A stretch of DNA of 64,000 nt, taken from the NCBI RefSeq assembly GCF_000940805.1, contig NZ_CP007142.1:1650593-1714592 (forward strand), in the 5' to 3' direction. The DNA is from Gynuella sunshinyii YC6258 (GTDB lineage Bacteria; Pseudomonadota; Gammaproteobacteria; Pseudomonadales; Natronospirillaceae). This document shows, one piece after another, positions 5,364-42,901 of the stretch. Position 1 is the stretch's first letter. Each line of letters begins with the position of its first letter. Made by a program: the position numbers and the translations under genes. The notes under the pieces are model-generated. The model made no database searches and was not told where the DNA came from. It saw only the letters and a list, made by a program, of their open reading frames with translations.

Positions 5364-5438
5364 GAAAGACTCCTTGATGAATGAATGACCGGAGATCCGG
5401 CTTGTTCAGAGAACACCACCATGGTAGGTTTTGCTTTA

Positions 5439-5458
5439 ACGAGATTCATTCTCAATAA
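5439..5458. promoter_or_regulatory. Fur-box-like element in divergent promoter
   Basis: On the minus strand the region reads TTGAGAATGAATCTCGTTA. Its core GAGAATGAATCTC is a near palindrome resembling the ferric-uptake-regulator box. It lies between the start codons of the methyltransferase (5363) and the AraC gene (5461), very close to the latter. This is pattern recognition only. Confidence 0.45.
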
Positions 5459-5460
5459 CG

Positions 5461-29800: not shown

Positions 29801-29869
29801 CGTATAGCTATGGCTATGGGGGTTTCTGGTATGATAGGGGCCGGTGCGAGCTTTGGTGGACCTTTCTGA
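23828..29869 (+). CDS. Rhs/YD-repeat lipoprotein with NHL (teneurin-like) domain and variable C-terminal tail
   Basis: A 2013-residue polymorphic-toxin-type shell protein. It opens with a lipoprotein signal (ITLSSC, lipidated cysteine near residue 19), then a carboxypeptidase-regulatory-like fold (IRGQVFSRENEPLSGVTISI). NHL repeats span about 615-940 (LGIAIGEDGSIFIADSDNN, repeated), YD repeats about 960-1800, and the Rhs core ends NPVNMIDPNGQ near residue 1837. The last ~176 residues form the variable tail, which is Gly/Ala-rich and hydrophobic with no recognised enzymatic motif. The tail DNA is visibly more A+T-rich than the core. The gene abuts a small membrane-protein gene at its stop codon. 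It probably anchors to the outer membrane and delivers or displays the tail. Confidence 0.9.
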   Translation: MKFGSFIFLICSLITLSSCQDDTGGTEPTLPPDPADVAPSLSNTEYTSMADATKFLYSGDSPIQTGVTDGTIEEKRVAVIRGQVFSRENEPLSGVTISIKDHGEYGQTLSRADGRFDLAINGGRAVFVNYQKEGYLTVQRQVDTPWRDYVMADDVVMLALDAKVTAIDLENSSSVQVAQGSEQTDTSGSRQATVLFPTGTSATMILANGSTQTLNSLHVRATEYTVGENGPKAMPGKLPISSGYTYAVELSVDEAIQAGATHVTFNQPLPVYVDNFLEFPTGEVVPAGWYDQNKMAWVPSNNGRVIEILNITDDGLAELDVAGTGEVAESDLLAIMNITEAERKYLGEYYAVGKTLWRVPVQHFTPWDFNWPYGLPEGATTPPVIEDQPILDSEDCDTCEGSIVEAQTQSLAEEIPVAGTPYSLYYNSNRTSGYSGSRTVTVPLARDSVPSPLKYVEVSIDIAGKTVTQKFDQVSPNDTFTYTWDGLDAYRRSAYSSRASISVNYTYDPVYYPADPAGFMAANQPDIQDPEWLQQFAPDWLASFAQIGDKTRVIGLSRSEIVTTTRWHQPLTIHQTQIQMGLWDFNIHHHYDPIHFTLYKGNGEQRQAKGVDKVIKLIAGALNRTEGYNGDEQPATQAMLDNILGIAIGEDGSIFIADSDNNRIRKVTPDGVIHTIAGTGEKGYSGDGGSASEATFSWITDVTIDHNGNIFVAEGGNDVIRKISQDGIITTVAGTGEPRSNDYKNARNGVSALEISIKPDALVVAADGTLYFGDYYTNGIYKVTPDDKATLLIGRPDRDYTEGGGPLIKQFIGTPHSMALAADNTLYIAASDGVFQFSPTGELSQIFDHNSEAITVDDDGNIYFGSDTRLSSGVEHLLYKRNANGEITVVAGGGNVVESDTSTAQRLLFTVTGLAIGPDGAIYLSESKFVSQISPAFGMIAADDEIAIPDNSGQEVYIFSDTGRHLRTLDTVTGKARYTFGYDDNGMLVSIMDLDGNTTTIERLSDGTAAAIVSPDGQYTTLTMENNGYLADISNPNAESYHMSYSDDGLLTQFTYPSGASSQMTYDNLGYLLTDTNAAGGGWQLARENGATGYTTTMTSAEGRVRHFSVTQQDRSVLKTNTAPDSRVTKTILADGSQTVTSADGMTVHTQQGPDARFSMIAPIDSVTQITTPSGLVKTIQQKSQATLSDQHNPFSHTKLINELIVNGDKYSWNPSYTRVYDTEARTWTHTTPESYTMTELLDEKGHLSKKTISGLDSFNYHYDERGRLIQIDRGDSAVRKVSFGYDLNGYLSSITNARNQTVSYSNDAVGRVLSQTNPNGNTLKYAYDANGNLTRLTLANGEVHQFSYTTVDQQDQYTPPDADSSANEGSTGSDYPGTKYIYNLDQQLTQVTRPDGDIIEYHYDQTSGQLISVGIPQGDYVYGYYGDTSTSEINSGQLKTLTSPQGEQLRYQYDGSLLTDIHWTGDTSGTLSYTYNNNFEPITQSLNGDPVELSYNHDGQLTGIGILSIYHRRYNGLLSGTRLGNITSSQGYNSLGELDSYSTEDGSNTLYSYTLERDSTGKIIGKTETLSGVTSKYEYQYDSLDQLTKVVKDGVLSELYTYDNNGNRLSDLNNNAGRYDAQDRLLSYGDIHYTYSANGELKSKTENGKTDTYHYDAFSNLLSVTQNDGTRIEYVIDGQNRRVGKKVDGELVQGFLYQGQLNPVAELDGKSNVVSRFIYGEKLNVPSYMIKGGATYRIISDHLGSVRLVINADTGETVQQINYDSFGNIEADSNPGFQPFGFAGGLYDQHTKLTRFGARDYDAGIGRWTSKDLIRFGGGQFNIYTYAANNPVNMIDPNGQFIWVAAGALVGGITNLAVTYIANGGDISLKQGIGAFASGAISGAVGALAGPLGGTLAKSLTGSASMAAGTMSRMVSGLSQLAMNAFGGALGQEAANIIDPCHASGVANAAVFGYLGSVGGLMPSRGLSTLAQAKYFGPSFRSLMATPNGRRIAMAMGVSGMIGAGASFGGPF

Positions 29870-30205
29870 ATGAAGCTATTTTGTGGTTTTCTGATAGGCT
29901 ATTTGAATGGCCTCATATGGCCTATCCTTGTGATATATATGCCATATTTTGTTTGGTCCCTGTCAAGAAAAAAGCATATGTTGACCATGTCCAAGGGGTA
30001 CGTAATTATTTTAGTTTTTGTATGGTTTACTTGGGCCTCTCTTGCGTTATTTGCGTGTGCTGAAAGTACTCTAATATTAGTGAAGGCTATCTTTAAAGAT
30101 ATTGTTGATTTTAAGGAAGAGATTGGGCGGTATATCGCATTTGGAATAGGTGTTGGTATTATTACTTTGCCAGCAATACTATCACTATTTGGAAAACAGA
30201 GCTGA
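29870..30205 (+). CDS. Three-span membrane protein, candidate immunity protein for the Rhs tail
   Basis: The ATG follows the Rhs stop codon without any gap, as is usual for a cognate immunity gene. The 111-residue product has three hydrophobic segments (about 10-29, 43-66, 87-107) and no other recognisable motif. A membrane-located immunity protein would fit a membrane-acting toxin tail, which agrees with the hydrophobic tail of the Rhs protein. Function is inferred from position only. Confidence 0.65.
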   Translation: MKLFCGFLIGYLNGLIWPILVIYMPYFVWSLSRKKHMLTMSKGYVIILVFVWFTWASLALFACAESTLILVKAIFKDIVDFKEEIGRYIAFGIGVGIITLPAILSLFGKQS

Positions 30206-30224
30206 ATAAAAGTAAATAGGATAA

Positions 30225-30346
30225 AAAGATACCCATAAGGACATGGTGGCAGCAAATGGAAAAAATGGGATAAGTATCGGGATTGGGAAAAGGGAAGACC
30301 AAGAAGTGGAACTTACGATGAAGATGGAAATCGACTAAGAGACTAA
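30225..30346 (+). pseudogene. Remnant of an orphan Rhs/CDI-type toxin C-terminus
   Basis: Two overlapping frames read KDTHKDMVAANGK and then KWDKYRDWEKGRPRSG up to TYDEDGNRLRD and a stop at 30344. Joining them needs one added A in the AAAAAA run at about 30260-30265, so the remnant carries a single-base frameshift. The closing motif resembles the ends of nuclease-type contact-dependent toxins. There is no start codon: this is a displaced tail left by exchange of the Rhs C-terminus. Confidence 0.55.
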
Positions 30347-30356
30347 GGTGTAAAAA

Positions 30357-30881
30357 ATGAAGCATTCCATCAATTTAAATAAGCAGGAACAAAAATAGTA
30401 TTTGGCTAATTTTAAGTCACTGTTACTTGTCGATGCAGCTGAAAGAAAGCATGGTTATCAAGAACTTGCACTGTCTGTTTTTGATCATTGGTTAGATTCA
30501 GAAGAGGCTAGTGAGCTTCTTGATAACGTTCAACAGGAAACGGATGATCATAGAACGTCGAGTATTTTTAATTTCCATAAAGATATTGTTCAAAACTTTT
30601 AGGTTATCACATTTGCTATTCGTGGCCGAGGGAAAAAGAGGCGTCCTATTTTTAAGGCATTTTGCAATAAGGAACTTGCTTTACAGTATCTGTGGCCAAA
30701 AGATCATAATGTTTCAATGAAATACTACTCTAAATTAGTCATTCCAAAAATTAATTGTATTTATTATGAAGGGAATGACTATACAAATTATATATACTTT
30801 AAGAATTTGAGTGATATACAGGAGTTTTTGCAAATAGCCAAAAATAACGGATTGCATGTTTTAGAATTGTCAGATGAATAA
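30357..30881 (+). pseudogene. Degenerate immunity gene of the displaced toxin tail (two in-frame TAG codons)
   Basis: From the ATG at 30357 one frame runs 174 codons to TAA at 30879, broken only by TAG at 30396 and TAG at 30600. The pieces read MKHSINLNKQEQK, then SLLLVDAAERKHGYQELALS and beyond, then KRRPIFKAFCNKELALQYLW up to HVLELSDE. The composition and length suit a small soluble immunity protein, and it starts 10 bp after the toxin remnant. The A+T-rich composition matches neighbouring accessory DNA. The two stops could be decay or, less likely, recoding; both are amber. Confidence 0.55.
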
Positions 30882-31028
30882 TCCTTGATCTTTTTTTATT
30901 TCTTATTTGGCCTGTGGAAAACTCTCAGATGCCCAGGGAGCCTCTGATTTTTACCCCAAACCATGGTTAATCGTTAACATCATTCAAAAGTATGCTTGAA
31001 TTTGGGTAAGCGCCCAACCAACCACACC

Positions 31029-32617
31029 CTACCCAAGCTGAACATTCCAAGGCAATAATGCCTCAATGTGTTCAACACTCTGAGCATTGGGAAGTTCTTT
31101 AAATACATGCTGCAAATACTCGTATACATTCAGATCGTTTGCCTTCGCGGTTTCGATCAGGCTGTATAAGTTCGCGCTGGCTTTGGCACCGGCCTGGCTT
31201 TTACTGAACATCCAGTTTTTACGACCAATCGCAAACGGGTGTATCGCTCGTTCGGCGGCGTTGTTGTCAATAGGGTATGAGCCATCTTCCAGATAACCCG
31301 TTAAGCGACCCCACTGGTGATGCAGGTAATGGCACGCCATCCCGAGTTTGGTTTTCGGAGCCACGGTCAGTAAGCGTTTGTCCAACCATCGTTTCAATGC
31401 ATCGAGAATGGTGCGCGCCTGTATGTGTCGAATCTGGTAGCGTTGATCCGGTGGTTTGTCTTTGATCTGCTGTTCCAGCACGTAGAGTCTTTGAATATAC
31501 GCCAATGCCTGATCGGCGGTGCCGGTTTTGCCTTTTTTCTGAAGCGCTTGTGCGTCTTTGAATTTACGCCGTGCATGTGCCCAGCATCCCAGGCGGGTAA
31601 TGCCATATTCATCGCAGGCTTTTTGATACCATTCGTAGCCGTCTACCATGAGAGCCTGAGTCTGTGCGCTTAACAGTGCCATCGGCACGGCCTGACCACG
31701 CGTATCGGCGTAATGGAACAGGCAAGCAGGTTGCTCACCGGTACTGATCATCACCCACATGTAGCTTCTGCTCTGCGGCGTTTTTCCCGGTTCTTCCAAT
31801 ACCTGTAACGTTGTCTCATCCATGTGCAGGTAGGGTTGTTGAAGAAGGTGATCCTTCAGCAGGTTGATCAACGGCTGTACCAGGGCACCACATTTTACCA
31901 TCCAGTTCGTCAGGTTGGTTCGATCCAGTTCAATACCGATGCGTTTGAACATTTCACTTTCGGTAACTGCTCCTGCGTTACTCTACCTCCTGCATCCATG
32001 CAGTCGTGACGATACAGCGGTAAGGCATCGGCGTATTTTTGTGTGGCGACGTAGGCCAGCAAGCTGGGACTGGCGATGCTTTTGTCAATCGGTTGTTTGG
32101 GTTTTGGCGCAGTGACGATGTGCTGGTCACAACAGGGACAGGCGTATTTTAAACGCTTATGCCGAATCACTTTGATCTGAGCCGGAATGATCTCCAGTTG
32201 TTCGTGGTCTTCACTGCCAATGGGTTTCAATTCAGACCCATCGTGAGGACAGACTTTATCGGCGTCAGCCAGATCATGGATGACGTCTTCACGCGGCAGG
32301 TGATCAGGGATGGTGATACGAGGTTTGCGGGTGCGAGTATGACTTTTGACTGAGGTACTGTGAGGTACTGTTTCTGTATCAGCCTCACTGAGCACGTCTT
32401 CGGCTTCGTTAAAGAGTCCTAATTGATCTGGGGATGCTTTTTCACTGGAAGGGCTAAAGCGTTTGCCGAGCAGGTATTTGAGTTGTTCTTGCAAGAGCGC
32501 GATGTGAGAGTCGCGCTCGACAACCTTCTGACGTTCAATGGCAATGGTGTGTTGTTCAACTGCCAACTGTTCGCGCAATAGCTCATTTTCTGCTCGTAAT
32601 GCCATGGTGTCTTTCAT
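31029..32617 (-). pseudogene. tnpC: IS66 transposase TnpC, interrupted by a frameshift
   Basis: The N-terminal part (31910-32617) contains the leucine-zipper start, the zinc-finger-like CPHDGSELKPIG and CPCCDQH. The C-terminal part (31029-31952) contains the DDE catalytic core (HMDETTLQVL, MVDGYEWYQKACDEY, NNAAERAIHPFAIGRKNW). The two frames change around 31940-31960, where EQLPKVK gives way to MFKRIGIELDRTNLTNW. A one-base indel is the simplest explanation. Without correction or frameshifting the element lacks an intact transposase. Confidence 0.85.
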
Positions 32618-32634
32618 GGCCGTTATTATAACGC

Positions 32635-32991
32635 TTATGCTACTTCAGTAAACGTCAATGATTGGTGTGGTGTCAGTTTGGCAATATCCACGCCTCGTAA
32701 TAACCAGCGCCATTGTTCAATGCTGATGGAGACAACCGCCAATGGGTCTTTCTTCGGCCACTTGAACCGGTCTTTCTCCAACCGTTTTTGCCACAGGACA
32801 AAGCCGGTACTGTCCCAGTACAGCACTTTGAGTTGAGTGCGGGTTTTATTGCAAAACACAAACAGCGCCTGATGGTAGACATCGAGAGCCATCTCCTCGC
32901 TGACCATCACCGCCAGACCATTAATGGCTTTGCGAAAATCGACGAGATCACGGTGCAGGTAGATCGGTACCGAGTCGGGCCACTGAATCAT
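32635..32991 (-). CDS. tnpB: IS66 accessory protein TnpB
   Basis: A 118-residue protein typical of IS66 OrfB, with the signature motifs VDFRKAINGLAVMV, FVFCNKTRTQLKVLYWD and GFVLWQKRLEKDRFKWP. It is required for transposition in this family, though its biochemical role is unclear. It overlaps the end of tnpA by 4 bp (ATGA). Confidence 0.92.
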   Translation of the reverse strand: MIQWPDSVPIYLHRDLVDFRKAINGLAVMVSEEMALDVYHQALFVFCNKTRTQLKVLYWDSTGFVLWQKRLEKDRFKWPKKDPLAVVSISIEQWRWLLRGVDIAKLTPHQSLTFTEVA

Positions 32992-33281
32992 GCGAGTGCT
33001 TTAATCAAAGAGACAATGGCAGGCATCGACAGAGTGTCCGGGCACTGCACCTGGCACTGTCCGACTTGTAGCATCAGCCCTGATGAAGACACCCACTCAG
33101 ACGGTACCTCGACACGTGTAAATGCACCGGTGTGCTGAGCAGAGGCTTTATGCTTAGAGAGTTTCAAGTTGAAGTACTTGGGATTGAAATCATGCTGTTT
33201 GCAAAATTCAGCTTGGGTCAGTTGGGACTGCTCGAACTGTGCAAACAGTTGTGACCATTGATATTTGCGGCGTTTGGACAT
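32988..33281 (-). CDS. tnpA: IS66 accessory protein TnpA
   Basis: A 97-residue protein with the helix-turn-helix start typical of IS66 OrfA (QWSQLFAQFEQSQLTQAEFC, then DFNPKYFNLKLSKHK). First gene of the element, about 80 bp inside the right inverted repeat. Confidence 0.88.
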   Translation of the reverse strand: MSKRRKYQWSQLFAQFEQSQLTQAEFCKQHDFNPKYFNLKLSKHKASAQHTGAFTRVEVPSEWVSSSGLMLQVGQCQVQCPDTLSMPAIVSLIKALA

Positions 33282-33361
33282 GAGTGCCTCCTTGGATGTG
33301 AAGGCTATAGGTTATTGCAGGAATCTTGGCGTTGGTAGGATGTAGTTGGTTGGGCGCTTAC

Positions 33362-33564
33362 TATTCCCCCTGCCACCGGTGCTATCACAGCAACAGTTCT
33401 CCGAGTATGTCGGGGTGTCATCTGATACGGTGCGCGGATGGGTAGAACAGCGTACCTTGCCGACGATTAAAATCGGTCGTCAACGATATATCAATATCGT
33501 TGGCCTGACGGATGCGCTGAACAACGGCAAGAGCAGGTTTTGTAAGGGAGATTATAAGTCGTGA
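33362..33564 (+). pseudogene. Phage Cox-like excisionase/regulator, 5' end removed by IS66
   Basis: The frame reads FPLPPVLSQQQFSEYVGV, then SSDTVRGWVEQRTLPTIKIG and RQRYINIVGLTDAL, which resembles the small helix-turn-helix Cox proteins of P2-like and some filamentous phages. Its start lies in or beyond the IS66 end, so the native start codon is lost. It marks a former prophage boundary. Confidence 0.6.
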
Positions 33565-33605
33565 TGACAGGAGCGCCGGATGGCGCCCGCTGGAAGGTGT
33601 CAGTA

Positions 33606-33716
33606 ATGTCTTTGATAGATGTCAGCAGTGCACACCCAGCCAAGGAGTTAAAAAATAGATATATTCTTATCATTTTTTTAAAAAAAAAAACCAAAAACAT
33701 TCTAACAATGTTTTAG
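33606..33716 (+). CDS. Short reading frame of doubtful status (36 aa)
   Basis: An ATG with GGAAGG upstream opens 36 codons (MSLIDVSSAHPAKELKNR, then a low-complexity hydrophobic/lysine tail encoded by an A/T run). It may be the cut-off start of another phage gene next to the Cox remnant. Confidence 0.25.
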   Translation: MSLIDVSSAHPAKELKNRYILIIFLKKKTKNILTMF

Positions 33717-33755
33717 AGGCGTCGCACATTCCATTGCATCAGCATTATAATCATA

Positions 33756-33785
33756 TTGACTTGCATCATCAAAGATAGATATATT
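33756..33785 (+). promoter_or_regulatory. Candidate sigma-70 promoter of the peptide operon
   Basis: TTGACT (33756-33761) and TATATT (33780-33785) are separated by 18 bp, and the predicted transcript start lies about 45 bp upstream of the peptide start codon. Confidence 0.5.
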
Positions 33786-33838
33786 CGCAATCGTCTTCAA
33801 ACTGGGAAGGCAATAAAATTAATTTAAGGAAATTAAAA

Positions 33839-33928
33839 ATGAAAACTGTAAAAAAAATTGATCTTTCAAAAGTTAAAGTAGTAATGGCTTCTGCTATAGC
33901 AATGCGCGCTCAAATCGAAATGTTTTAA
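33839..33928 (+). CDS. 29-residue peptide, candidate RiPP precursor
   Basis: The reading frame has a good Shine-Dalgarno (AAGGA, 8 nt before the ATG). The peptide begins MKTVKKIDLSKVKVV and ends MASAIAMRAQIEMF. The first half is lysine-rich and amphipathic like a leader, while the second half carries the only arginine (Arg23), Gln25, Glu27 and a C-terminal Met-Phe. No signal peptide cleavage site is evident. It is followed by a hairpin and then by oxygenase, exporter, methyltransferase and oxygenase genes on the same strand, the standard layout of a ribosomal peptide pathway. I know of no described family with this sequence. An alternative is a short regulatory leader peptide. Confidence 0.6.
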   Translation: MKTVKKIDLSKVKVVMASAIAMRAQIEMF

Positions 33929-33940
33929 GCAAATGAAGCC

Positions 33941-33965
33941 ATGAGCAAGGGTTAACCTTGCTCAT
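33941..33965 (+). terminator. Perfect 10-bp hairpin between peptide and enzyme genes
   Basis: ATGAGCAAGG and CCTTGCTCAT pair around GTTAA. It has no U tract. In peptide operons such hairpins let the precursor mRNA outnumber the enzyme mRNA by partial termination or 3'-end protection. Confidence 0.65.
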
Positions 33966-33982
33966 TTACTACGAGGAAAAAA

Positions 33983-35155
33983 GTGGTGCAAGACTACATC
34001 TCACCTGAAGCGTTCCAAGAAATTAAGAAATCTTTTGAAAATGAAGTTTGTTTTATTAAAGCTGCGAGCAGCCTACCTGATATTCTTCAACCACAAAGGT
34101 TCGAAAGTTATTTACGCAATCACGAAGGTGACATTCATAAATACTTAATGTTGTATAAAAATGGGAAAGACATCGCAATCCCGGCGCATTCGGTTTTATA
34201 TGCCTCAGGTCAATTCAACTTCGTCTTTGAACATTTCAAAAACGGTGCAACGCTGAAACTAGAAGAATTGGAAAAAAGAGATGAAATTATTGCCCATATA
34301 TGCCAAAGCCTAGAAAAAGAATTTGGTGGGAACTCATGGAGTAAAGCGTTCTGGACTCCAAAATCAAACAAGGGAGTTCCAATTCATTTTGATTCAACAT
34401 CAATCATTGTCGTCCAGCTAGCAGGGCGGAAGCGCTGGCAAATTTGGAGTGAGTTTGTTAGAAAGCCAAATCTATCCATGGCATCTCCAGTTTCGGCAGA
34501 CCAACTTGGAGAGCCGTGCCTCGACGTAATCCTTGAGGAAGGAGATGTACTATATTTCCCATCTGGTTATCCACATTGCACTGAATCACTAGACGAGCAT
34601 TCATTGCATATAGGACTAGCGATAAATCCAACATCGGTAATTGAACTGATTGAGTACCATTTCAGAAGACTCGCGAAATCTAACTACGACTTGAGAAGCA
34701 GTGTCCATAAAAATGACCGAATAGATGATGTAATTGCAAGATTAAGTAATTGTGGGATAAACGTCAGCATCGATCAACTCGAGCAATCATTTAACCTATT
34801 CAACGTCTCATCTAGGGTAAATAAAACTAACTTCGCACACAACTCTCTTGCCTCTTTGTCGAATCAATATAAAGAGAACGCGAAATTCCGATATCATGAA
34901 GTCAGGAGTGTTAGAGTCGTCAAAAACGATTCAACACTAAAAATTTATTTGCCCAATCAAGTAATTCCTGAAAAACCTTTAATTATTGGTGAGCCATCAT
35001 ACTTAGCGCTACCAACCGAATGCTTTGAAGTAATTGAGTTTATGCTTTCTGGTCAAGATTTTTCAGTTGAGGAGCTTAAGAACTTTGTAGACGAGGAAAC
35101 TAGTATTGCTTTAGTCGAATTACTTATTGCCCATCAGATAATAGTTGCAAACTAG
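33983..35155 (+). CDS. JmjC/cupin-type 2-oxoglutarate oxygenase (ROX-like), first copy
   Basis: Predicted to hydroxylate a peptide or protein side chain using Fe(II), oxygen and 2-oxoglutarate. The iron-binding triad is visible as His135 and Asp137 (VPIHFDST) and His198 (GYPHCTES) in a jelly-roll domain with LAGRKRWQIW and EGDVLYFPSGYPH. The C-terminal 60 residues look like the winged-helix domain of ribosomal oxygenases (LPTECFEVIEFMLSG, ELLIAHQIIV). The start is GTG (33983 or 33986) behind ACGAGG. The family includes YcfD/RoxA, which hydroxylates an arginine in ribosomal protein L16. Its context here points to the peptide at 33839 as substrate (inference). Confidence 0.85.
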   Translation: MVQDYISPEAFQEIKKSFENEVCFIKAASSLPDILQPQRFESYLRNHEGDIHKYLMLYKNGKDIAIPAHSVLYASGQFNFVFEHFKNGATLKLEELEKRDEIIAHICQSLEKEFGGNSWSKAFWTPKSNKGVPIHFDSTSIIVVQLAGRKRWQIWSEFVRKPNLSMASPVSADQLGEPCLDVILEEGDVLYFPSGYPHCTESLDEHSLHIGLAINPTSVIELIEYHFRRLAKSNYDLRSSVHKNDRIDDVIARLSNCGINVSIDQLEQSFNLFNVSSRVNKTNFAHNSLASLSNQYKENAKFRYHEVRSVRVVKNDSTLKIYLPNQVIPEKPLIIGEPSYLALPTECFEVIEFMLSGQDFSVEELKNFVDEETSIALVELLIAHQIIVAN

Positions 35156-35166
35156 GTATAAAAACT

Positions 35167-36315
35167 TTGAGTAACTATAAAAGTATCGTGTTATTAATTT
35201 TTCTAGCATCAATAGCAAGTTGGTTCGACTTTATTGCAGTCTTAAGCTTATTTGCGTCAGACTCTAAGTCAGGACCCTTAGATACAGCACTTGTATCGAT
35301 CGCGATGCTAGCTCCACCCGCTTTGCTTTCCAGGCACTATACGCGATTAGTTAATAAGTATAATCTGAAAGCCGGGCTGACTTTTGCTCTACTAGCCAGG
35401 TCTATATTGACTTTTATAATACTTTTTTTTGTTAACAACTACCTAATAGCACTAATTCTGTTAGCCTGTCGAGCTGCATTTTCCGGTCTATTTGCACCGC
35501 AAATTTCATTAATAGCCAGTAATGTAGTAGACGAGTTAAAACCTAAACTTAGTGCTCACATTAGTCTCGCAAATAATGTATCTAAGCTGGTAATACCTGC
35601 AGCAGGTGGGGCTCTGGCGGTGGCTTTTGGAAACACATTTGTTATCCTTCTAGGTGGGCTAATTTTATTTTTTACCGCATTATTCGCGTTTTTTTCACTG
35701 AGTATTATAAATACTCAAAACAAAGAAACCAAAAAGACGGGAAGTCCAATTGATGCCAATCATAAATTAGAGCTAACCCATGCTGGATTGTATTATTTTC
35801 TTGTTTTCAGCATGAGCAATCTGCTGCCCTATATTTTCCACGATATTGGATCAGGAACACTACTTTTCTCAATTGCAATATCATGCTCGGCATTCGGAAA
35901 TATTTCGGCTGGAATAATTCTTAGTAAAAACAAGACAAATATTTATCGATTGCAATTTTTGATAAATGCCCTCTTTACATGCTTACTTTTTTTCGTAATT
36001 TACTTGCTCATCACAGTTAAGTTTAACTATGCGCTTCCAATCGTATTTGCATTGACCGGCTACTTTAGTGCCTCTATTCAAGTCAACATAACCAATAACA
36101 CAATTTCTCTAACAAGTGAAAAAGCCACCTCATATTCAGCTAGGTTTCAGAGTACTCAGAACATAGCAATGCTCGCCGGGCCTATTTTTGGTGCAACAGT
36201 AATTGAATATTTTTCTTCAGAATTGCTATTTTTAACATCGTCTTTAATTGGAGTGGTTTATTTCACATCGACAATTTTGATAAGTAAAAGGACGAAATAT
36301 GAATCTGTACATTGA
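35167..36315 (+). CDS. MFS transporter, candidate peptide exporter
   Basis: A 382-residue membrane protein with about 12 hydrophobic spans and an MFS-like first half (SWFDFIAVLSLFA, SRHYTRLVNKYNLKAG). The start appears to be TTG at 35167, 11 bp after the oxygenase stop; no ATG fits. The end overlaps the methyltransferase start by 17 bp, so translation is coupled. It most likely exports the finished product of the operon. Membership in the drug/macrolide-exporter-like part of MFS is an impression only. Confidence 0.8.
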   Translation: MSNYKSIVLLIFLASIASWFDFIAVLSLFASDSKSGPLDTALVSIAMLAPPALLSRHYTRLVNKYNLKAGLTFALLARSILTFIILFFVNNYLIALILLACRAAFSGLFAPQISLIASNVVDELKPKLSAHISLANNVSKLVIPAAGGALAVAFGNTFVILLGGLILFFTALFAFFSLSIINTQNKETKKTGSPIDANHKLELTHAGLYYFLVFSMSNLLPYIFHDIGSGTLLFSIAISCSAFGNISAGIILSKNKTNIYRLQFLINALFTCLLFFVIYLLITVKFNYALPIVFALTGYFSASIQVNITNNTISLTSEKATSYSARFQSTQNIAMLAGPIFGATVIEYFSSELLFLTSSLIGVVYFTSTILISKRTKYESVH

Positions 36316-37135
36316 ACTACTTTCGAAAGTTGTGAGAAATGAAATATATCTCAGCTATCATGACCAAAGTATCACTAGTCAAGATATTGAGACATGCCAG
36401 CTTGTAATAAGCGATCTACAAAAAAACAACCCTGTTGTTTTAGATACATACCCGCACTTGAAAGACGCCAAGAAGTTTGCAGATATCATTAATTATACGA
36501 AATCCTCAAAACCGGTGCATACGTATGTCAATGAAAAAGGTACTAAGAACCTCATAGAGTTATGCGAAACCGTGATCAATGAAAACATCGACGGATCTTT
36601 TGTAGAAGTCGGGACCTTACGTGGCGGACTAGGGATATTAATGGCCGGAATTATACAAAGTACCGGAGTAGACAAAAATCTATATATTTTTGATAGTTTC
36701 GCGGGATTAAACACTACGAATACCAAGGACTCACTTTTCGATCGTGAAGTATGGGACAGGTATCGAACGTGGTTTACCCAACATCAGTTTAATTGCGAAT
36801 GTTCAAAATCTGAGGTAATTGAGAACTTTAAAAAATATGATTTGGATAGCATCCCAAGACTAATGGAAGGGTGGATTCCAGATTGCTTCTCAAACTTTGA
36901 TGAGAAAATTTCTTGCCTCCGAATTGATGTGGATTGGTACCAAGCCACGCTGGATACATTATTGAATCTCTATGATCTGGTGGAGCCTGGAGGATATATA
37001 ATTATCGACGACTACAAGTTAGAAGGCTGCAAAAAAGCCATCCATGAGTTTTTTGACTTAAAAGGGATATCCCCTTTGATTCAACATGCCTGTGAACAAA
37101 GCGGAATAATATATTGGAAGAAAAATCATGATTAA
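36299..37135 (+). CDS. TylF/MycF-like Mg-dependent O-methyltransferase
   Basis: SAM-dependent methyltransferase of 278 residues. The SAM motif is FVEVGTLRGGLGILMAG (about residues 101-117), followed by IFDSFAGL. Acidic metal ligands typical of the TylF group appear in LRIDVDWYQATLDTL and GGYIIIDDYKLEGCKKA. The family usually methylates hydroxyl groups of sugars in macrolides. Within this operon it may methylate a hydroxyl made by the oxygenases. It overlaps both neighbours (17 bp upstream, 8 bp downstream), which firmly places it in the operon. Confidence 0.85.
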   Translation: MNLYIELLSKVVRNEIYLSYHDQSITSQDIETCQLVISDLQKNNPVVLDTYPHLKDAKKFADIINYTKSSKPVHTYVNEKGTKNLIELCETVINENIDGSFVEVGTLRGGLGILMAGIIQSTGVDKNLYIFDSFAGLNTTNTKDSLFDREVWDRYRTWFTQHQFNCECSKSEVIENFKKYDLDSIPRLMEGWIPDCFSNFDEKISCLRIDVDWYQATLDTLLNLYDLVEPGGYIIIDDYKLEGCKKAIHEFFDLKGISPLIQHACEQSGIIYWKKNHD

Positions 37136-38240
37136 TATCTCACCATTTAAATGGAATAAATTCGTTAAGTCGGCAATAGAGAGCGAGTTTGCTTTAATTG
37201 AAGATGAAACCCTGGTCGATTTCGAAACTGCAATTACTGAACTTCAACAAGCTATGCTTTCTGGGAGTGGGCAACTAAGTTACAAGTTAGCAGGAGGCTG
37301 CAAAGGTAAGCCAATTCAAAAAGGTAGTTTTGAGAACATACTCAACGACTGTAGAGATAAAAAGGTCAGCTATATTATAGAAGGAATGCAATCAGTACCT
37401 GGATTTTATTCAAATCTAGCTCAAAAGTTATCCAACACCTACCTTTCAAACATTACTATTAATGCATTTATTTCCTGTAAAGATAGCCAAGCCAGTCCGC
37501 TACATTATGATTTCCATGACCTTGTGAACATCCAACTGCTAGGAAGCAAAAAGTGGAATGTTTATAAGAGAGCAAAGGATATTTCCTACCATCCTACAGG
37601 TTACATGATAGATGAGTCCAGCTCCGCTCAAAGCGTATTTTCTGGCGAAATAAAAGAGCTCGATATTTTTACTATTCCTCGAGGGTACGCCCATGATGTA
37701 TCCACTCTATCTGATATATCAGTGCATTTAGCAGTTGGATTTAGGTTTCTAACTCATGAGGACATTTTGCTCTATAAAGTCAGAAAGAAGATCAATGGAA
37801 GGTTAAGTCAACCAATCTGGAGAGATAATTTAGACTCTGAGATAGCTGCAGCATTTGTGAACAACCACAGCAACTTAGCAATCGATGTCAGTAAAAAGGA
37901 TGTATTCGAGTTTGTATTGTCTTCGCAGAAATTTTGGGACACTACAATGATCGATAGTGCTTCAAAAGCTATTTTTGAAAAAGGGTCGTTCTTTATTGAG
38001 AAAAAGGAAGAGACGCTTAAACTATCAATTCCAATGGTAGTCCACCCTAGTATTACAATTGATCCAATCACTTTTTCACCGACTGAAATAGAATTGCCCA
38101 TAGAGACAGAAAAATTGTTCAGTACAATCGAGGAAAAAGGAGAACTTGATCTTTCTTCAGACCTAGATGATATAGACGCCGAAACTGTTGCTGCAGTAGC
38201 TGAAATCCTTCATTCGGTCGGACTCGCTGATTTCGTCTAA
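37128..38240 (+). CDS. JmjC/cupin-type 2-oxoglutarate oxygenase (ROX-like), second copy
   Basis: A 370-residue relative of the first oxygenase with its own complete triad His126, Asp128 (PLHYDFHD) and His189 (GYAHDVST), and LLGSKKWNVY in the jelly roll. The C-terminus again resembles a winged helix (DAETVAAVAEILHSVGLADF). The two copies are clearly divergent, which suggests different sites or successive oxidation steps rather than a recent duplication. The start codon lies inside the methyltransferase gene. It is the last gene of the operon. Confidence 0.85.
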   Translation: MINISPFKWNKFVKSAIESEFALIEDETLVDFETAITELQQAMLSGSGQLSYKLAGGCKGKPIQKGSFENILNDCRDKKVSYIIEGMQSVPGFYSNLAQKLSNTYLSNITINAFISCKDSQASPLHYDFHDLVNIQLLGSKKWNVYKRAKDISYHPTGYMIDESSSAQSVFSGEIKELDIFTIPRGYAHDVSTLSDISVHLAVGFRFLTHEDILLYKVRKKINGRLSQPIWRDNLDSEIAAAFVNNHSNLAIDVSKKDVFEFVLSSQKFWDTTMIDSASKAIFEKGSFFIEKKEETLKLSIPMVVHPSITIDPITFSPTEIELPIETEKLFSTIEEKGELDLSSDLDDIDAETVAAVAEILHSVGLADFV

Positions 38241-38365
38241 TATACTTTTGTTAAAAACAAACATCGTTCTTTTGTATTGATAGATAGCTCGTGGATTGAG
38301 CGTCAAAACTTCTGACTCAAGACGCTAACACGAATATTTAACCAAAATCACTTTGCAAACGGTAA

Positions 38366-38402
38366 AACGGCTTTGTAACGTTAGCATTCGTTCTAAGCCG
38401 TT
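38366..38402 (+). terminator. Hairpin downstream of the peptide operon
   Basis: AACGGCTT (38366-38373) pairs with AAGCCGTT (38395-38402) over a 21-nt loop, 125 bp after the last operon gene. There is no U tract. Apart from this and the transposase scraps listed next, 38241-38763 shows no gene. Confidence 0.35.
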
Positions 38403-38613
38403 GTTACTCAGTTAAAGTAAAGGCAATCTCTGCTTATCATAATTACTAAAGCCAATGTTCAGCAAGTTCTTGAACGCTCGAAATAGCCTCGTCCCATTTT
38501 GCAGCACAAACAACACAGAAACAGCACAGGACACCCATCTTAACTATTGATATTCACGCCAACAGCCGGCATTATCCGATACTGTATATTTATCAGTGTA
38601 AGGATGTATGATC

Positions 38614-38682
38614 ATGACCCGATCAAGGACGTCACAAATCTCACTTGAAGCCACGCCTTATTATCACTGTGTTTCCCGCTGA
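38614..38682 (+). pseudogene. N-terminal scrap of a REP-type Y1 transposase
   Basis: An ATG at 38614 opens MTRSRTSQISLEATPYYHCVSR before a stop. This is the typical start of REP-associated tyrosine transposases (compare SLEETSFYHCMVRCVRRAY in the gene at 38764). The rest has been replaced by the repeat units that follow. Confidence 0.65.
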
Positions 38683-38721
38683 GGGTAAAAAGGACACCCA
38701 CCAGGGTAAAAAGGACACCCA
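38682..38721 (+). repeat. Two 19-bp direct repeats with GGGT...ACCC ends
   Basis: AGGGTAAAAAGGACACCCA occurs at 38682-38700 and again at 38703-38721. A related copy (AATAAAAAAAGGACACC, then TAAACTTG) lies at 39955-39979, past the transposase pseudogene, and the TAAACTTG flank is shared with 38722-38729. The repeats therefore bracket the transposase. Confidence 0.7.
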
Positions 38722-38763
38722 TAAACTTGAATTCAATTCTCACCTCAACTAACATCCGCCACC

Positions 38764-39843
38764 GTGACCAAACCCCGTAACGAACAGGTCTCTCTGGAAG
38801 AGACATCCTTTTATCACTGCATGGTGCGCTGTGTTCGGCGGGCGTATTTGTGTGGTGCCGATTCTGAAACTGGTGAGAATTTTGATCACCGCAAGCAGTG
38901 GTTGGTGTCGCGCCTGCGGTTTTTATCCTATGTCTACGCCATTGATATTTGTGTCTATGCGATCATGAGTAATCATTATCATGTGGTGCTGCACGTCGAT
39001 CAGGTACGCGCTCAAAGCTGGTCGGATGACGGAGTGGTGGAGCGCTGGTTGCAGCTGTACAACGGGGATGTATTGATCAACCGTTGGCTGGCGGCGCGTG
39101 AAACGATGTCAACCGCCGAGTTGCAGGCCGTGTCGGTCACGATTGCCCAATGGCGTGAACGTTTGTGTTCCATCAGTTGGTTTATGCGCGGTGTCAATGA
39201 AACCATTGCCCGTATGGCCAATGAAGAAGACAACTGCAAAGGCCGGTTCTGGGAAGGACGTTTCAAATCTCAGGCTTTGTTGGATGAAGGTGCATTGCTG
39301 ACCTGTATGGCCTATGTAGATTTGAATCCGGTACGGGCTGCCATGGCGGATGATCTGATCGATAGCGACTTTCCTTCCATTCAACAGCGACTATTCGATT
39401 ACGCCAAAATACAAAACCACCCAAACCAAAACCGTTACCGAACAAACACTCACCCAGCGTGTTTCTAAACAACGCCAACTTAAGCGTGAGTTGAAGCTTG
39501 ATCACCTGCCAGAATCCCCATTGATCCTTTCAGTGGACGCCAGCAGGATGCCATTCATGCAGCCCTTCCATTCACCCGGGAAGACTATTTCGATTTGATT
39601 GATACCACCGGTCGCTGTCTGCGAAATGACAAACGGGGTGCTATACATCCTGAAACCGAAAAACTGATCATCCGACTGGGTATCGACCCGAATCAATGGC
39701 TGAAACATGTTCAAAGTTATGGTCGGTCGTATGGAGATAGCGCCGGCTCTCGGGTTTCGTTATTGCAGTATGCAGATCGATTTAAACGGCGATGGAGTAA
39801 AGGGATTAAAGTGTCTTCGGAGTGCTATCTCAGAACCAGTTGA
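38764..39843 (+). pseudogene. REP-associated Y1 (HUH) transposase with two frameshifts
   Basis: The first 220 codons are intact and include the HUH motif (SNHYHVVLH) and the YVDLNPVRAAM region with the catalytic tyrosine. The frame is then lost near 39400-39410. The expected continuation (TVTEQTLTQRVSKQRQLKRE) is found in the next frame, and the original frame resumes by 39526 (LPFTREDYFDLIDTTGR), ending at 39843. Two indels about 120 bp apart therefore disable it. Start is GTG at 38764. Confidence 0.8.
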
Positions 39844-39989
39844 TCTATTCTGGCTGTTACATCAGTACGTCTCTGGTGGAACGGTATAGGAACAGAAAAC
39901 TAATTATCTGGTAAACACCTGCTGTTCATTCTTGGCAGAGGACTGGCTGGCAGGAATAAAAAAAGGACACCTAAACTTGCAGTGAGGCA

Positions 39990-40113
39990 GATAAACTCTA
40001 CGGCTACGATCGTGACAACCGCCTGCTCAGCAGTACCGGTTACTAAGGCAACCAGGCTTCGGGCTCGACAGCAACGCTAACATCACTGGCGTAAGGCTGG
40101 CCTCAGACCATCC
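39990..40113 (+). pseudogene. Rhs YD-repeat fragment
   Basis: The frame reads DKLYGYDRDNRLLSSTGY, stops, and after a shift continues FGLDSNANITGVRL, a recognisable YD-repeat pattern. It is cut off by the IS630-type element at 40116. Confidence 0.6.
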
Positions 40114-40115
40114 TA

Positions 40116-41207
40116 TTAACCCGGCGAAAAAGAATATCTGATACAATAGTCCAATGGAAACGACAACAGACACAAGAAAACTACCACGAGAAGTGATCGA
40201 AGAAAAACGCCGCATGGCACATCGGTTACTCATGCGTGGATTCACACGCGCAGAGATTGGTCAAGAGCTCGGCGGCGTACATCCAGATACGATCGGTCGA
40301 TGGTTAAAGCTCGACACAACCAACCTCACTGTCAATCGAGGGGGGCGTAAGCAGGGAGAAGCAAGACGGTTATCTGCTGACCAGGAAAAACACATTAGAT
40401 CACAGATCATCGACAAAACGCCCGACCAGTTAAAACTGGATTATGTCTTGTGGACACGAAAAGCCGTGTGCGAGTTGATTGAGCAGGAATTCAAGATCCA
40501 GTTGCCAGTGAGAACGGTCGGTGATTATCTCAAACGTTGGGGCATGACCCCCCAAAAACCTGCAAAGCGAGCGTACGAGCAAAATCCGAAAGCCGTTCAA
40601 CAGTGGTTGGATGACGATTATCCGAAGATCAAAGCTCAAGCAAAACGTGAAAACGCAGAGATATACTGGGGCGATGAGACGGGTATGCGTAATGACAGCC
40701 AGCACGAACGAGGCTATGCCCCAAAAGGAAAGACACCGGTTGTTCGGCTTAATGCCAACCGTACTTCCACCAATATGATTTCGGCGGTGACCAATCAGGG
40801 AAAAGTTCGATTTAAGATATTCGATGGGTCAATGAATACCGACATTCTGATTGATTTTTGTGAGCGTATCATCAAAAGCGCGGGCAGAAAGGTCTATCTG
40901 ATACTGGATAATCTTCGTGTTCACCACGCAAAAGTATTTAAAGCTTGGCAGGAAAAACATCGGGCAGACATAGCGGTATTTTATTTACCATCCTACTCAC
41001 CGGAACTGAATCCGGATGAATATTTGAATTGTGATTTGAAAGCAGGTGTTCACAGTGGCAAGCCAGCGAGAAACAAAGAAAAATTAAAGAAAAAAGTTCG
41101 AAGTCATATGCAGATGTTACAAAAGAAACCTGGTCGAGTGCGGAAATATTTTATCCATAAAAAAATTGCTTACGCTGCATAACAGGTATGTTTAATCGCC
41201 GGGTTAA
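40116..41207 (+). mobile_element. IS630-family insertion sequence (1092 bp), apparently intact
   Basis: The 12-bp terminal inverted repeats TTAACCCGGCGA (40116-40127) and TCGCCGGGTTAA (41196-41207) are perfect, and the element is flanked by TA on both sides (40114-40115 and 41208-41209), the target duplication expected for IS630/Tc1-type transposons. It carries one full transposase gene and interrupts Rhs-derived DNA. Confidence 0.92.
40154..41182 (+). CDS. IS630-family DDE transposase
   Basis: A 342-residue transposase. The N-terminus is a helix-turn-helix (LMRGFTRAEIGQELGGVHPD). The catalytic acidic residues appear in IYWGDETGMRND, YLILDNLRVHHAK and SPELNPDEYLN, the usual D-D-E spacing. 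The C-terminal lysine-rich helix is complete. It begins 26 bp inside the left inverted repeat and looks functional. Confidence 0.93.
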   Translation: METTTDTRKLPREVIEEKRRMAHRLLMRGFTRAEIGQELGGVHPDTIGRWLKLDTTNLTVNRGGRKQGEARRLSADQEKHIRSQIIDKTPDQLKLDYVLWTRKAVCELIEQEFKIQLPVRTVGDYLKRWGMTPQKPAKRAYEQNPKAVQQWLDDDYPKIKAQAKRENAEIYWGDETGMRNDSQHERGYAPKGKTPVVRLNANRTSTNMISAVTNQGKVRFKIFDGSMNTDILIDFCERIIKSAGRKVYLILDNLRVHHAKVFKAWQEKHRADIAVFYLPSYSPELNPDEYLNCDLKAGVHSGKPARNKEKLKKKVRSHMQMLQKKPGRVRKYFIHKKIAYAA

Positions 41208-41299
41208 TAATAATGGTTTCGCTGGTTTCGTCATGTGATGAGATCGGCTTCATCGGACTTTGAAAAAATCTGTTAGCGTGTTATGAGGAATATTGAAAA

Positions 41300-41956
41300 G
41301 TGCTTCGTATATTTTTAATTATTGTATCTGCCATGCTTGCTGCATGTCAGGCGACGAAGGTGGAACCGGTTAGTAAATCCTATTATTCCGGCGTCAAACC
41401 AGAAAAATATCAAGAAATCAGCCCTGTAAATGATGTGCAGATATGGGTTGCTAATCGATATTTAAAATTGAATTGTAATTGCAGTGATATCGAAATTTTT
41501 GTTAACGAGCGTCGACGTTGGGTGCCTGAATTCTATCTGGTAGTTGATACCGATCCAAAAAGTGGTAGGGGATTTGTCAACTCAGAAAGAGAGGGCTGGA
41601 AGGGTATTTCTGTAGAATCAATAGAGATTGATGAGGCCAGATTCTCGCATGAAATTGGTTATTTCGATACGTTGCAGGTTCCAGCAGGCGAAATTCAAAA
41701 CATTATAAATCAGACACCCTACACTGCGCCAAGTTGTGGATTGGTGAGCAGGCTTACATCAGAAGATAAAAAGTACTCGATATCTGTTGTTGATTCGATC
41801 AGCTGTGGTGAGTTTTCATCGGCTCTGAGAGGTAGGGAATCGTTGAAATCTTTGCCAAAAGAAACGCGGGATCTAATGACCCCCTACATACAAACCCTTG
41901 ACCAAAGAATTGAAATTTTGAGAGCAGAAGAAAGAACTGGCTATGGTTTCCTATGA
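41300..41956 (+). CDS. Hypothetical lipoprotein (218 aa)
   Basis: The protein begins with a lipoprotein signal (MLRIFLIIVSAMLAAC, lipidated cysteine at residue 16), so it is anchored in an envelope membrane. The rest is soluble, with four further cysteines, and is not a family I recognise. The start is GTG behind TGAGGA. It sits just outside the IS630 element in the Rhs-derived region, where orphan immunity genes are common, but no toxin partner is visible. Confidence 0.6.
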   Translation: MLRIFLIIVSAMLAACQATKVEPVSKSYYSGVKPEKYQEISPVNDVQIWVANRYLKLNCNCSDIEIFVNERRRWVPEFYLVVDTDPKSGRGFVNSEREGWKGISVESIEIDEARFSHEIGYFDTLQVPAGEIQNIINQTPYTAPSCGLVSRLTSEDKKYSISVVDSISCGEFSSALRGRESLKSLPKETRDLMTPYIQTLDQRIEILRAEERTGYGFL

Positions 41957-41998
41957 AAATTAATACGTAACTGATCAAAAAATTATTACGAGAGGTGA

Positions 41999-42019
41999 CA
42001 GCGAAGTGAGGCTTCGCTG
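41999..42019. terminator. Hairpin between lipoprotein and GNAT genes
   Basis: CAGCGAAG and CTTCGCTG form a perfect 8-bp stem around TGAGG. No U tract follows. Confidence 0.45.
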
Positions 42020-42081
42020 CAATGATGGCTTTGACAAACTTGATGGAGGATAAGCGCGTGAGAGTGCAGGAGGATTTCGGA

Positions 42082-42648
42082 ATGGTTAAACTCCAAAAAG
42101 CTGACGTAGACTCTCTAAGCGAGTTCAAAACTGCTCTCCAGGATTCGTTCCGAGTGGCGATCGAAGCTGATTTAGGTCAACCGATTGAAGAACCCATTCC
42201 TTCTGATAAGGACATAGAGCAGTCCATTGCTGAGGCTGGAGCTGCTACATACTGGATCATGGCAAACCATCAGCGTGTCGGTGGTGCGGTTGTGGTAATT
42301 GATGAAATAAGCAATCGAAACTCATTGTCGTTCTTCTTCATTTTAACCGGCCTGCAGAGTCGGGGGTTAGGTCTACAAGCCTGGAAAGCAATCGAGAGGG
42401 AGTACCCAAACACCAAGGTCTGGGAAACCGTCACCCCGTATTTTGAGAAACGAAACATTCATTTCTATGTAAATAGGTGTGGTTTCAAGATTGTTGAGTT
42501 CTACAACAAGTTTCATCCAGATCCACACCAAGTTTCAGATCAGGTTCATGAAGAAGAGGATGATGATGAGATGTTTAGATTTATGAAGGTTATGGGTTCT
42601 GAAAGCGATTATAACTCGGTAAGTATACATGTCGGGTTAATAGCGTGA
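42082..42648 (+). CDS. GNAT-like acetyltransferase (188 aa)
   Basis: I chose the ATG at 42082 because AGGAGG lies 7 nt upstream. The product has a GNAT-like core: VGGAVVVIDEI, then FFFILTGLQSRGLGLQAWKAIE, where the GLQSRGLGLQAW stretch replaces the usual acetyl-CoA loop, and a C-terminal FEKRNIHFYVNRCGFKIV strand. The C-terminal region contains an acidic run (EEEDDDE). Found in an accessory region, so it may be a cargo gene. Substrate unknown. Confidence 0.7.
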   Translation: MVKLQKADVDSLSEFKTALQDSFRVAIEADLGQPIEEPIPSDKDIEQSIAEAGAATYWIMANHQRVGGAVVVIDEISNRNSLSFFFILTGLQSRGLGLQAWKAIEREYPNTKVWETVTPYFEKRNIHFYVNRCGFKIVEFYNKFHPDPHQVSDQVHEEEDDDEMFRFMKVMGSESDYNSVSIHVGLIA

Positions 42649-42670
42649 TGCAGGGATGCACCGAGGTGTC
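42645..42670 (+). repeat. 26-bp repeat, copy 1
   Basis: GTGATGCAGGGATGCACC followed by GAGGTGTC overlaps the GNAT stop codon. The same 26 bp, with one change, recurs at 46808-46833. Confidence 0.7.
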
Positions 42671-42694
42671 AGATTAAGTCGAAACTAATACACA

Positions 42695-42901
42695 GTGTCG
42701 ATATTTCGATTTTGGAAACACTTGGTTAATTTGGCAACAATAATAATATTTGTTGTTGTTTTGCTGACAATAATTGATCACTTTTTCTTCGCAGAAAAAT
42801 TTCGTGGTGAATTAAAAGGTATCGCCATATTTGCTTTTGTTTTGTATGGGACCGGTGTGTTGGTCACGTTAATAGTTGGGACAAGAGACAAACTGAAATG
42901 A
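42695..42901 (+). CDS. Small two-span membrane protein (68 aa)
   Basis: A GTG-initiated frame with two hydrophobic spans (LATIIIFVVVLLTIIDHFFF and IAIFAFVLYGTGVLVTLIVG) separated by a short charged loop, ending in a basic tail. No family is recognised and the ribosome-binding site is weak. It lies between the GNAT gene and an Rhs fragment and could be an orphan immunity protein. Confidence 0.5.
   Translation: MSIFRFWKHLVNLATIIIFVVVLLTIIDHFFFAEKFRGELKGIAIFAFVLYGTGVLVTLIVGTRDKLK

Follow-up and report, generated by a model that had tools for sequence, protein, structure and literature searches.

A window of 64,000 nucleotides from Gynuella sunshinyii YC6258 (contig NZ_CP007142.1, positions 1,650,593 to 1,714,592; all coordinates below are those of the window) carries an operon in which a gene for a 29-residue peptide is followed by genes for two JmjC oxygenases, a major facilitator superfamily (MFS) transporter and a TylF-type O-methyltransferase. 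This operon is, very probably, a rare and mobile pathway that makes and exports a small ribosomal peptide natural product, that is, a ribosomally synthesized and post-translationally modified peptide (RiPP). A RiPP-type operon had been proposed in a first-pass annotation of the window, and the proposal is supported by a small open reading frame (ORF) that is conserved among homologous operons and encodes a conserved leader and a variable core. The features of the operon are as follows.

33756..33785, plus strand: promoter-like TTGACT-18-TATATT with 10/12 consensus matches, weak evidence for a promoter and no better than chance (10 such sites in the region against a shuffle mean of 16.7)
33839..33928, plus strand: putative precursor peptide gene, 29 aa, with an ATG start and an AAGGA-type ribosome-binding site; the presumed core ends in Q25-I-E-M-F29
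33941..33965, plus strand: hairpin with a 10-bp stem between the peptide gene and the JmjC-A gene, -16.4 kcal/mol
33983..35155, plus strand: JmjC-A oxygenase, 390 aa, GTG start, JmjC_2 (PF08007, Pfam 7.8e-24)
about 34880-35152, plus strand: C-terminal winged-helix domain of JmjC-A in the predicted structure, resembling a RiPP recognition element (RRE)
35167..36315, plus strand: MFS transporter, presumed exporter, 382 aa, TTG start, MFS_1 (Pfam 9.7e-19)
36299..37135, plus strand: TylF/MycF/NovP-type O-methyltransferase, 278 aa, TylF (PF05711, Pfam 4.7e-45)
37128..38240, plus strand: JmjC-B oxygenase, 370 aa, JmjC_2 (Pfam 1.4e-13)

The ORFs, spacings and domains first assigned to the window agree with its ORF list and with Pfam. 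Successive genes are separated by 54 bp and 11 bp and then overlap by 17 bp and 8 bp. Both oxygenases combine a JmjC_2 domain with the HxD...H triad of the Fe(II)/2-oxoglutarate family, and the iron ligands noted earlier (H135/D137/H198 and H126/D128/H189) are all in place and do not vary across the alignments made. The window peptide has no Pfam match. Of the operon proteins and peptides submitted to NCBIfam, none scored above a cut-off, PADLOC left the four larger operon proteins unmatched, and PHROGs gave weak matches only (phrog_6608 at 2.2e-4 for TylF; phrog_8014 at 4.6e-7 and phrog_1978 for JmjC-B).

Homologous operons were found on plasmids and in genomes. A tblastn search of JmjC-A against 72,556 plasmids matched 122 records, with query coverage of at least 80% in three, two from Acinetobacter lwoffii and one from Paraburkholderia megapolitana. 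Gene order is JmjC-TylF-MFS on the Acinetobacter plasmids and JmjC-MFS-JmjC-JmjC-TylF on the Paraburkholderia plasmid. The two Acinetobacter plasmids differ in DNA elsewhere in the operon and have the same small-ORF region, so they were counted as one operon. A genome scan with an alignment of three TylF proteins gave three loci, one of them a JmjC-TylF pair in Xenorhabdus innexi; the other two were without a JmjC gene nearby. Among 345 genomes of the order of X. innexi, two loci were recovered, that of X. innexi and a JmjC-TylF-MFS operon in genome G1263, bringing the total to five independent operons. JmjC-A and TylF are co-inherited, both being present in all five. An adjoining MFS gene occurs in four, the other MFS proteins being 22-25% identical to that of the window; in X. 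innexi, a profile search found no MFS gene within 16.8 kb. Among the five, JmjC-B is confined to the window and Paraburkholderia operons. Of the enzyme set proposed at first, a JmjC oxygenase and a TylF-type methyltransferase occur in every operon, while a second oxygenase, present in two of five, is not the rule.

In each operon a small ORF of 24-29 codons lies 54-125 bp upstream of the first JmjC gene. The first-pass annotation had tied its peptide pathway to such a frame recurring beside homologous operons, and one is present in all four homologues. All five small ORFs have a purine-rich stretch ahead of the start codon and a hairpin after the stop codon, and they encode the following peptides.

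Window (33839-33928), 29 aa: MKTVKKIDLSKVKVVMASAIAMRAQIEMF
X. innexi: MTLNKKDIKFVTAAALKVAQYRFF
G1263: MTLNKKDIKFVSAAALKHVQHVLF
A. lwoffii: MKLTKDQVKLIRVGESIATVQLVLF
P. megapolitana: MTLNPEDIKLVLPEAIVVLSQHEIFS

The peptides share a leader pattern (MxLxxxDIKxV-like) and a Gln-x-x-x-Phe ending, which reads QIEMF in the window and QHEIFS in P. megapolitana, the two operons with JmjC-B, and QYRFF, QHVLF or QLVLF in the three without it. In unmodified form, the window peptide has a calculated neutral mass of 3265.815, and its QIEMF segment one of 666.305. For the four peptides known before G1263 was added, the alignment score was 190, against a mean of 98 and a maximum of 136 in 3000 shuffles, and the four ranked first among 3240 quartets of ORFs (20-40 aa) drawn from the 800 nt upstream of the JmjC genes. 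Conservation of the small frame across operons is thus confirmed as not due to chance. A QxxxF motif that ends the peptide or is followed by a single further residue is found in 5/5 peptides and in 7/1736 background ORFs of 20-40 aa, which is a frequency and not a test, as the motif was taken from these same peptides. The small ORF is not annotated as a coding sequence in three Acinetobacter and Paraburkholderia plasmid tables, themselves incomplete. A tblastn search with the G1263 peptide found no match on plasmids; the search is insensitive because it also missed the known operons.

X. innexi and G1263 form the one pair close enough to reveal selection at the protein level. Their leaders (codons 1-17) differ by 10 synonymous changes and 1 non-synonymous change, and none of 20,000 random-mutation trials gave a non-synonymous count as low as this. 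Their cores (codons 18-24) differ by 0 synonymous and 5 non-synonymous changes, with the Gln and Phe kept. The contrast between leader and core is significant (Fisher p = 0.0014), for a border at codon 17 that was chosen after inspection of the sequences. DNA identity is 71% within the ORF, 53% in the 75 nt upstream and 52% in the downstream gap. This is the pattern that a translated peptide with a conserved leader and a varied core, such as a RiPP precursor encoded beside its modifying enzymes, would show.

The hairpin between the peptide and JmjC genes, which did not figure in the first-pass annotation, is present in 5/5 operons. A short ORF and then a hairpin ahead of an operon is also the arrangement expected if the ORF were a regulatory leader peptide whose translation controls the hairpin (attenuation), with the enzymes acting on a small molecule, and the 3' arm of the G1263 stem ends in TTTTT. 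We regard attenuation as unlikely. Selection at the amino-acid level on the N-terminal part, together with variation in most C-terminal codons, speaks against it because stall or sensing codons close to the end of an attenuator should be retained. Moreover, the window hairpin fits a terminator pattern when read on the minus strand but not when read on the plus strand, Rfam gave no match at gathering scores in window positions 29800-42700, and the first enzyme of the operon has an RRE-like domain. The peptide and JmjC genes share one reading frame in the window (33839-35155) and in X. innexi (L012, 6659-7981), where a single stop codon separates them; by their coordinates the other three operons lack this common frame, so it is probably coincidence.

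The domain in question emerged from structure prediction. When the peptide was joined to JmjC-A as an in-frame read-through (TAA=G), AlphaFold2 returned a model with mean pLDDT 70.0 and pTM 0.58, in which the JmjC core is mostly confident and the C-terminal unit consists of strands and then three helices. Foldseek matched the whole model along its full length to NO66, MINA and YcfD (best E 7e-22, TM-score 0.45); at that TM-score the domains of the whole model are not superposable as one body. The last 91 residues of JmjC-A, modelled alone, gave pLDDT 79.5 and pTM 0.69. Parts of many RiPP enzymes match this domain at Z 5.1-7.5 (the PbtF RRE, ThcOx, TigE, TbiB1, MccB, McbB, lasso B1, NisB, heterocyclases, MadB and PqqD), with YcfD-type proteins interspersed at Z 4.9-5.9; for Z below 8, the tool warns that a match may reflect only a common arrangement. 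The matches to PbtF, TbiB1, MccB, McbB, NisB and PqqD reach Z 5.5-7.5 over 72-78 residues, and the matched parts of these proteins are presumably RREs. The Foldseek list for the domain, in which nothing reached E 0.001 or better, also names MadB, TruD, GodF and TglHI. The comparisons support an RRE-like predicted fold, though one still closer to the winged helices of MINA and NO66, and the domain may bind the leader. RRE-like beta3-alpha3 folds fused to PF08007 have been reported for proteins of fish and algae, and bacterial homologues of these are said to occur in 'RiPP-like genomic contexts' (PMC12710340); the excerpted text of that source describes no bacterial operon, precursor or chemistry, whereas the operons here supply a family of precursors together with the enzymes that accompany them.

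JmjC-A shares its architecture, a JmjC_2 catalytic domain, a helical region and a C-terminal winged helix, with the ribosomal oxygenases (ROX; YcfD/RoxA, MINA53 and NO66). Given this similarity in sequence and predicted fold to NO66, MINA and YcfD, the operon could instead be a ribosome-modification resistance cassette, with the JmjC proteins as extra ribosomal oxygenases and the transporter as an efflux pump, but we consider this most improbable. The JmjC tree of 18 rows places the ROX pair away from the operon JmjC proteins, on a long branch (100/100), and gathers the JmjC-A proteins of all five operons, six in number, on one side of a branch with support of 90/96, under the 95/80 mark of the tool; 88% of 200 bootstrap trees recover the JmjC-A grouping. 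The window JmjC-B joins the middle Paraburkholderia JmjC (97/94, flagged for a long branch). In an earlier tree of 19 rows that lacked G1263, the values were 92/93 for JmjC-A, 100/100 for ROX and 98/95 for JmjC-B, the last flagged in the same way. JmjC-A has only three matches in the 6.48-Mb host genome, namely itself, JmjC-B and a separate YcfD-like gene, which matches E. coli YcfD at 6.4e-57 and a YcfD-like protein at 1.9e-68. We therefore rejected the operon JmjC proteins as YcfD/RoxA orthologues: they lie outside the ROX pair, and a gene resembling the YcfD-type L16 hydroxylase is found elsewhere in the genome. A resistance cassette would also leave the conserved peptide gene adjoining JmjC-A unexplained. 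Elsewhere in the collection, a Salmonella megaplasmid carries a rhodanese-MFS-JmjC set (L010, 4316-6900); its JmjC and a second X. innexi JmjC (L041) group with the JmjC from the Paraburkholderia YcaO cluster, a second branch that is perhaps peptide-modifying.

The methyltransferase is the other constant enzyme. Its match to PF05711 places it in the same family as TylF, MycF and NovP, and its DVDWY and IIDDY stretches align with MycF, their Asp residues being, we assume, the metal site. In an 18-row TylF tree, however, the five operon proteins form their own group on one side of a branch (100/98), within which the window joins Paraburkholderia (94/89) and A. lwoffii joins the pair of X. innexi and G1263 (90/71). 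TylF relatives elsewhere have sugar and polyketide surroundings, and MFS proteins usually carry small molecules. Both facts would suit a scheme in which the enzymes make a small molecule of their own and the peptide, unmodified or modified in another way, serves as a toxin or signal. That scheme has very little probability in our judgement, since none of the five operons was seen to contain a sugar, nonribosomal peptide synthetase or polyketide synthase gene, and the peptide gene directly precedes JmjC-A every time.

In the RiPP pathway that we favour, the 29-residue peptide would be translated and its N-terminal leader bound by the winged-helix domain of JmjC-A. JmjC-A, as an Fe(II)/2-oxoglutarate enzyme, would then hydroxylate one residue of the short C-terminal core, most likely the Gln or the Phe shared by all five peptides, and TylF would O-methylate the new hydroxyl. 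As JmjC-A and TylF occur in every operon and the Gln and Phe in every peptide, hydroxylation of one of these residues followed by its O-methylation is the simplest scheme. JmjC-B of the window may add a second hydroxyl, perhaps on Glu27, because both JmjC-B operons encode a Glu two residues after the Gln; with two operons set against three, this link is a guess. An unlinked host protease would cut off the leader, and the MFS protein would export the very short product. We infer this order of steps, these target residues and the export of the product, and any antibacterial or other activity would likewise be conjectural.

Two known types of peptide pathway invite comparison. Microcin C operons (MccA-MccB-MccC) combine a tiny peptide gene, a hairpin after it and an MFS exporter, and part of MccB resembles the C-terminal domain of JmjC-A (Z about 7). 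A microcin C type was rejected because the window operon proteins include no ThiF/MccB adenylyltransferase. In Paraburkholderia a ThiF gene ends 424 bp before the small ORF, within a neighbouring YcaO-TfuA set. The region directly upstream of that operon (L007, 1-11292) holds two YcaO-TfuA-ThiF sets together with MFS genes and one more JmjC gene (4687-5568); the sets possibly serve thioamidated peptides.

The second comparison is with biphenomycin-type RiPPs, for which the excerpted descriptions report that the JmjC protein BipG hydroxylates an ornithine of a RiPP precursor (PMC12707348) and that PbsQ likewise hydroxylates a precursor (PMC12257519), so that peptide hydroxylation by a JmjC fold has precedent in RiPP biosynthesis. 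As excerpted, these systems resemble the present operons in having a JmjC/cupin-fold hydroxylase acting on the precursor, an MFS protein and a very short C-terminal core. They differ in their MNIO, B12-radical SAM, further hydrolase and TldD-type protease genes, none of which turned up in the present operons, and in a precursor of 41 aa with an FRFRS core in one case, against the QxxxF endings; the excerpts name no TylF. Membership of the biphenomycin family was rejected because neither the window operon nor the Acinetobacter and Paraburkholderia operons, as far as their genes are listed, contain MNIO and B12-radical SAM genes, and the peptides have no FRF core. Among the openly licensed papers of PubMed Central we found neither a prior description of the operon as a pathway nor a TylF enzyme acting on a peptide; a search for the latter turned up a single paper, on a promoter. 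It is likely that the operons represent a new RiPP class. Its defining parts would be a precursor of 24-29 residues ending in QxxxF, a JmjC enzyme into which an RRE-like domain is built, and a TylF that has exchanged sugars for a hydroxylated peptide as its substrate. The product would be a methoxylated micro-peptide, its genes passing between distant bacteria with plasmids and transposases, and in operons that have JmjC-B this enzyme would hydroxylate the Glu two positions beyond the Gln.

Several results weigh against a peptide pathway of this kind. It is known from five operons only, its codon evidence comes from a single close pair, and two of the six peptide pairs, window with A. lwoffii (p 0.14) and X. 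innexi with A. lwoffii (p 0.075), are not significant alone. The best structural matches of the 91-residue domain are the winged helices of MINA and NO66 (Z 8.5-11.1), Pfam found no family in this part of JmjC-A, and the low Z scores, the Foldseek E-values and the support for the JmjC-A branch given above point the same way. The AlphaFold2 model leaves the peptide unplaced relative to JmjC-A (pLDDT about 30 for the peptide), an uninformative outcome. Named TylF relatives are sugar methylators. Finally, there is no leader peptidase among the window operon proteins, although RiPP clusters usually, but not always, include one, and an unlinked protease would be needed.

The operons look rare. JmjC-A has matches in 4/369 genomes of the class (E 1e-15), 5/398 of the phylum (E 1e-40) and 3/194 of the order of the window (E 1e-35), its own genome included in each count, and in 1/149 of the X. 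innexi family (E 1e-30), namely X. innexi itself. By profile, the other matching genomes have no operon TylF or related MFS in flanks of 13-15 kb for six (L043-L046 from the phylum; L051 from the class and L070 from the order, 15 kb each) or in short flanks for three (L005, L006 and L066). At L051 (2225-9586) the JmjC gene lies beside genes for an HlyD protein, a C39-peptidase ABC exporter, a kinase and a phosphoesterase, and it is possibly another peptide-modifying JmjC. A scan of genome contigs with JmjC-A alone gave no matches, and TylF alignments performed better. TylF matched 17 plasmid records, three of them operons; around the TylF gene in four of the other 14 (from Pseudonocardia, Methylocystis, Azospirillum argentinense and one Mesorhizobium), profiles found no JmjC. 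TylF matches at 1e-25 came from 13 genomes of the class, and of these only that of the window has a flanking JmjC gene, in flanks of about 1.5 kb, less at contig ends and wider for four genomes. Viral contigs yielded no TylF relative and eight distant JmjC relatives, and the G1263 operon DNA had no match in E. coli genomes.

The first reading of the window also described the operon as A+T-rich and bracketed by mobile elements. Its GC content is indeed 37.6%, against 48.3% for the window, and IS66 genes lie to its left and a DDE_3 transposase gene to its right. The P. megapolitana and A. lwoffii operons are plasmid-borne, with one operon copy on a plasmid of 8.3 kb, and transposase-type genes lie near the operons of X. 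innexi (Transposase_31) and G1263 (integrase-core and HTH_Tnp_1, with a DDE_Tnp_1 match just under cut-off on the other flank). The flanking features in the window are these.

31029-32991: IS66 genes, left neighbour of the operon
ends at 33281: 97-aa ORF with no Pfam match, beside the IS66 genes
38764-39468: 234-aa ORF with no Pfam match, between the operon and the right-hand transposase
40154-41182: DDE_3 transposase, right of the operon

The IS66 TnpC region (31029-32617) is split over two overlapping frames, and by eye the 234-aa ORF resembles a REP-associated transposase. Farther left, positions 23828-30205 hold a gene for a 2013-aa Rhs/teneurin-like YD-repeat protein and, directly after it, a 111-aa ORF that has no Pfam match and occupies the position of an immunity gene. 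The operon probably accounts for the three 'cargo genes' of plasmid pAVAci117 that its describers reported as having no homologues (PMC7031236); the excerpted text of that paper does not name the operon genes.

At two to four enzymes, this would be a compact RiPP pathway that is directly testable. We found no described RiPP in which hydroxylation is followed by O-methylation by a sugar-type methyltransferase. Through the shared winged-helix domain, the operons would link the ROX oxygenases to peptide natural products.

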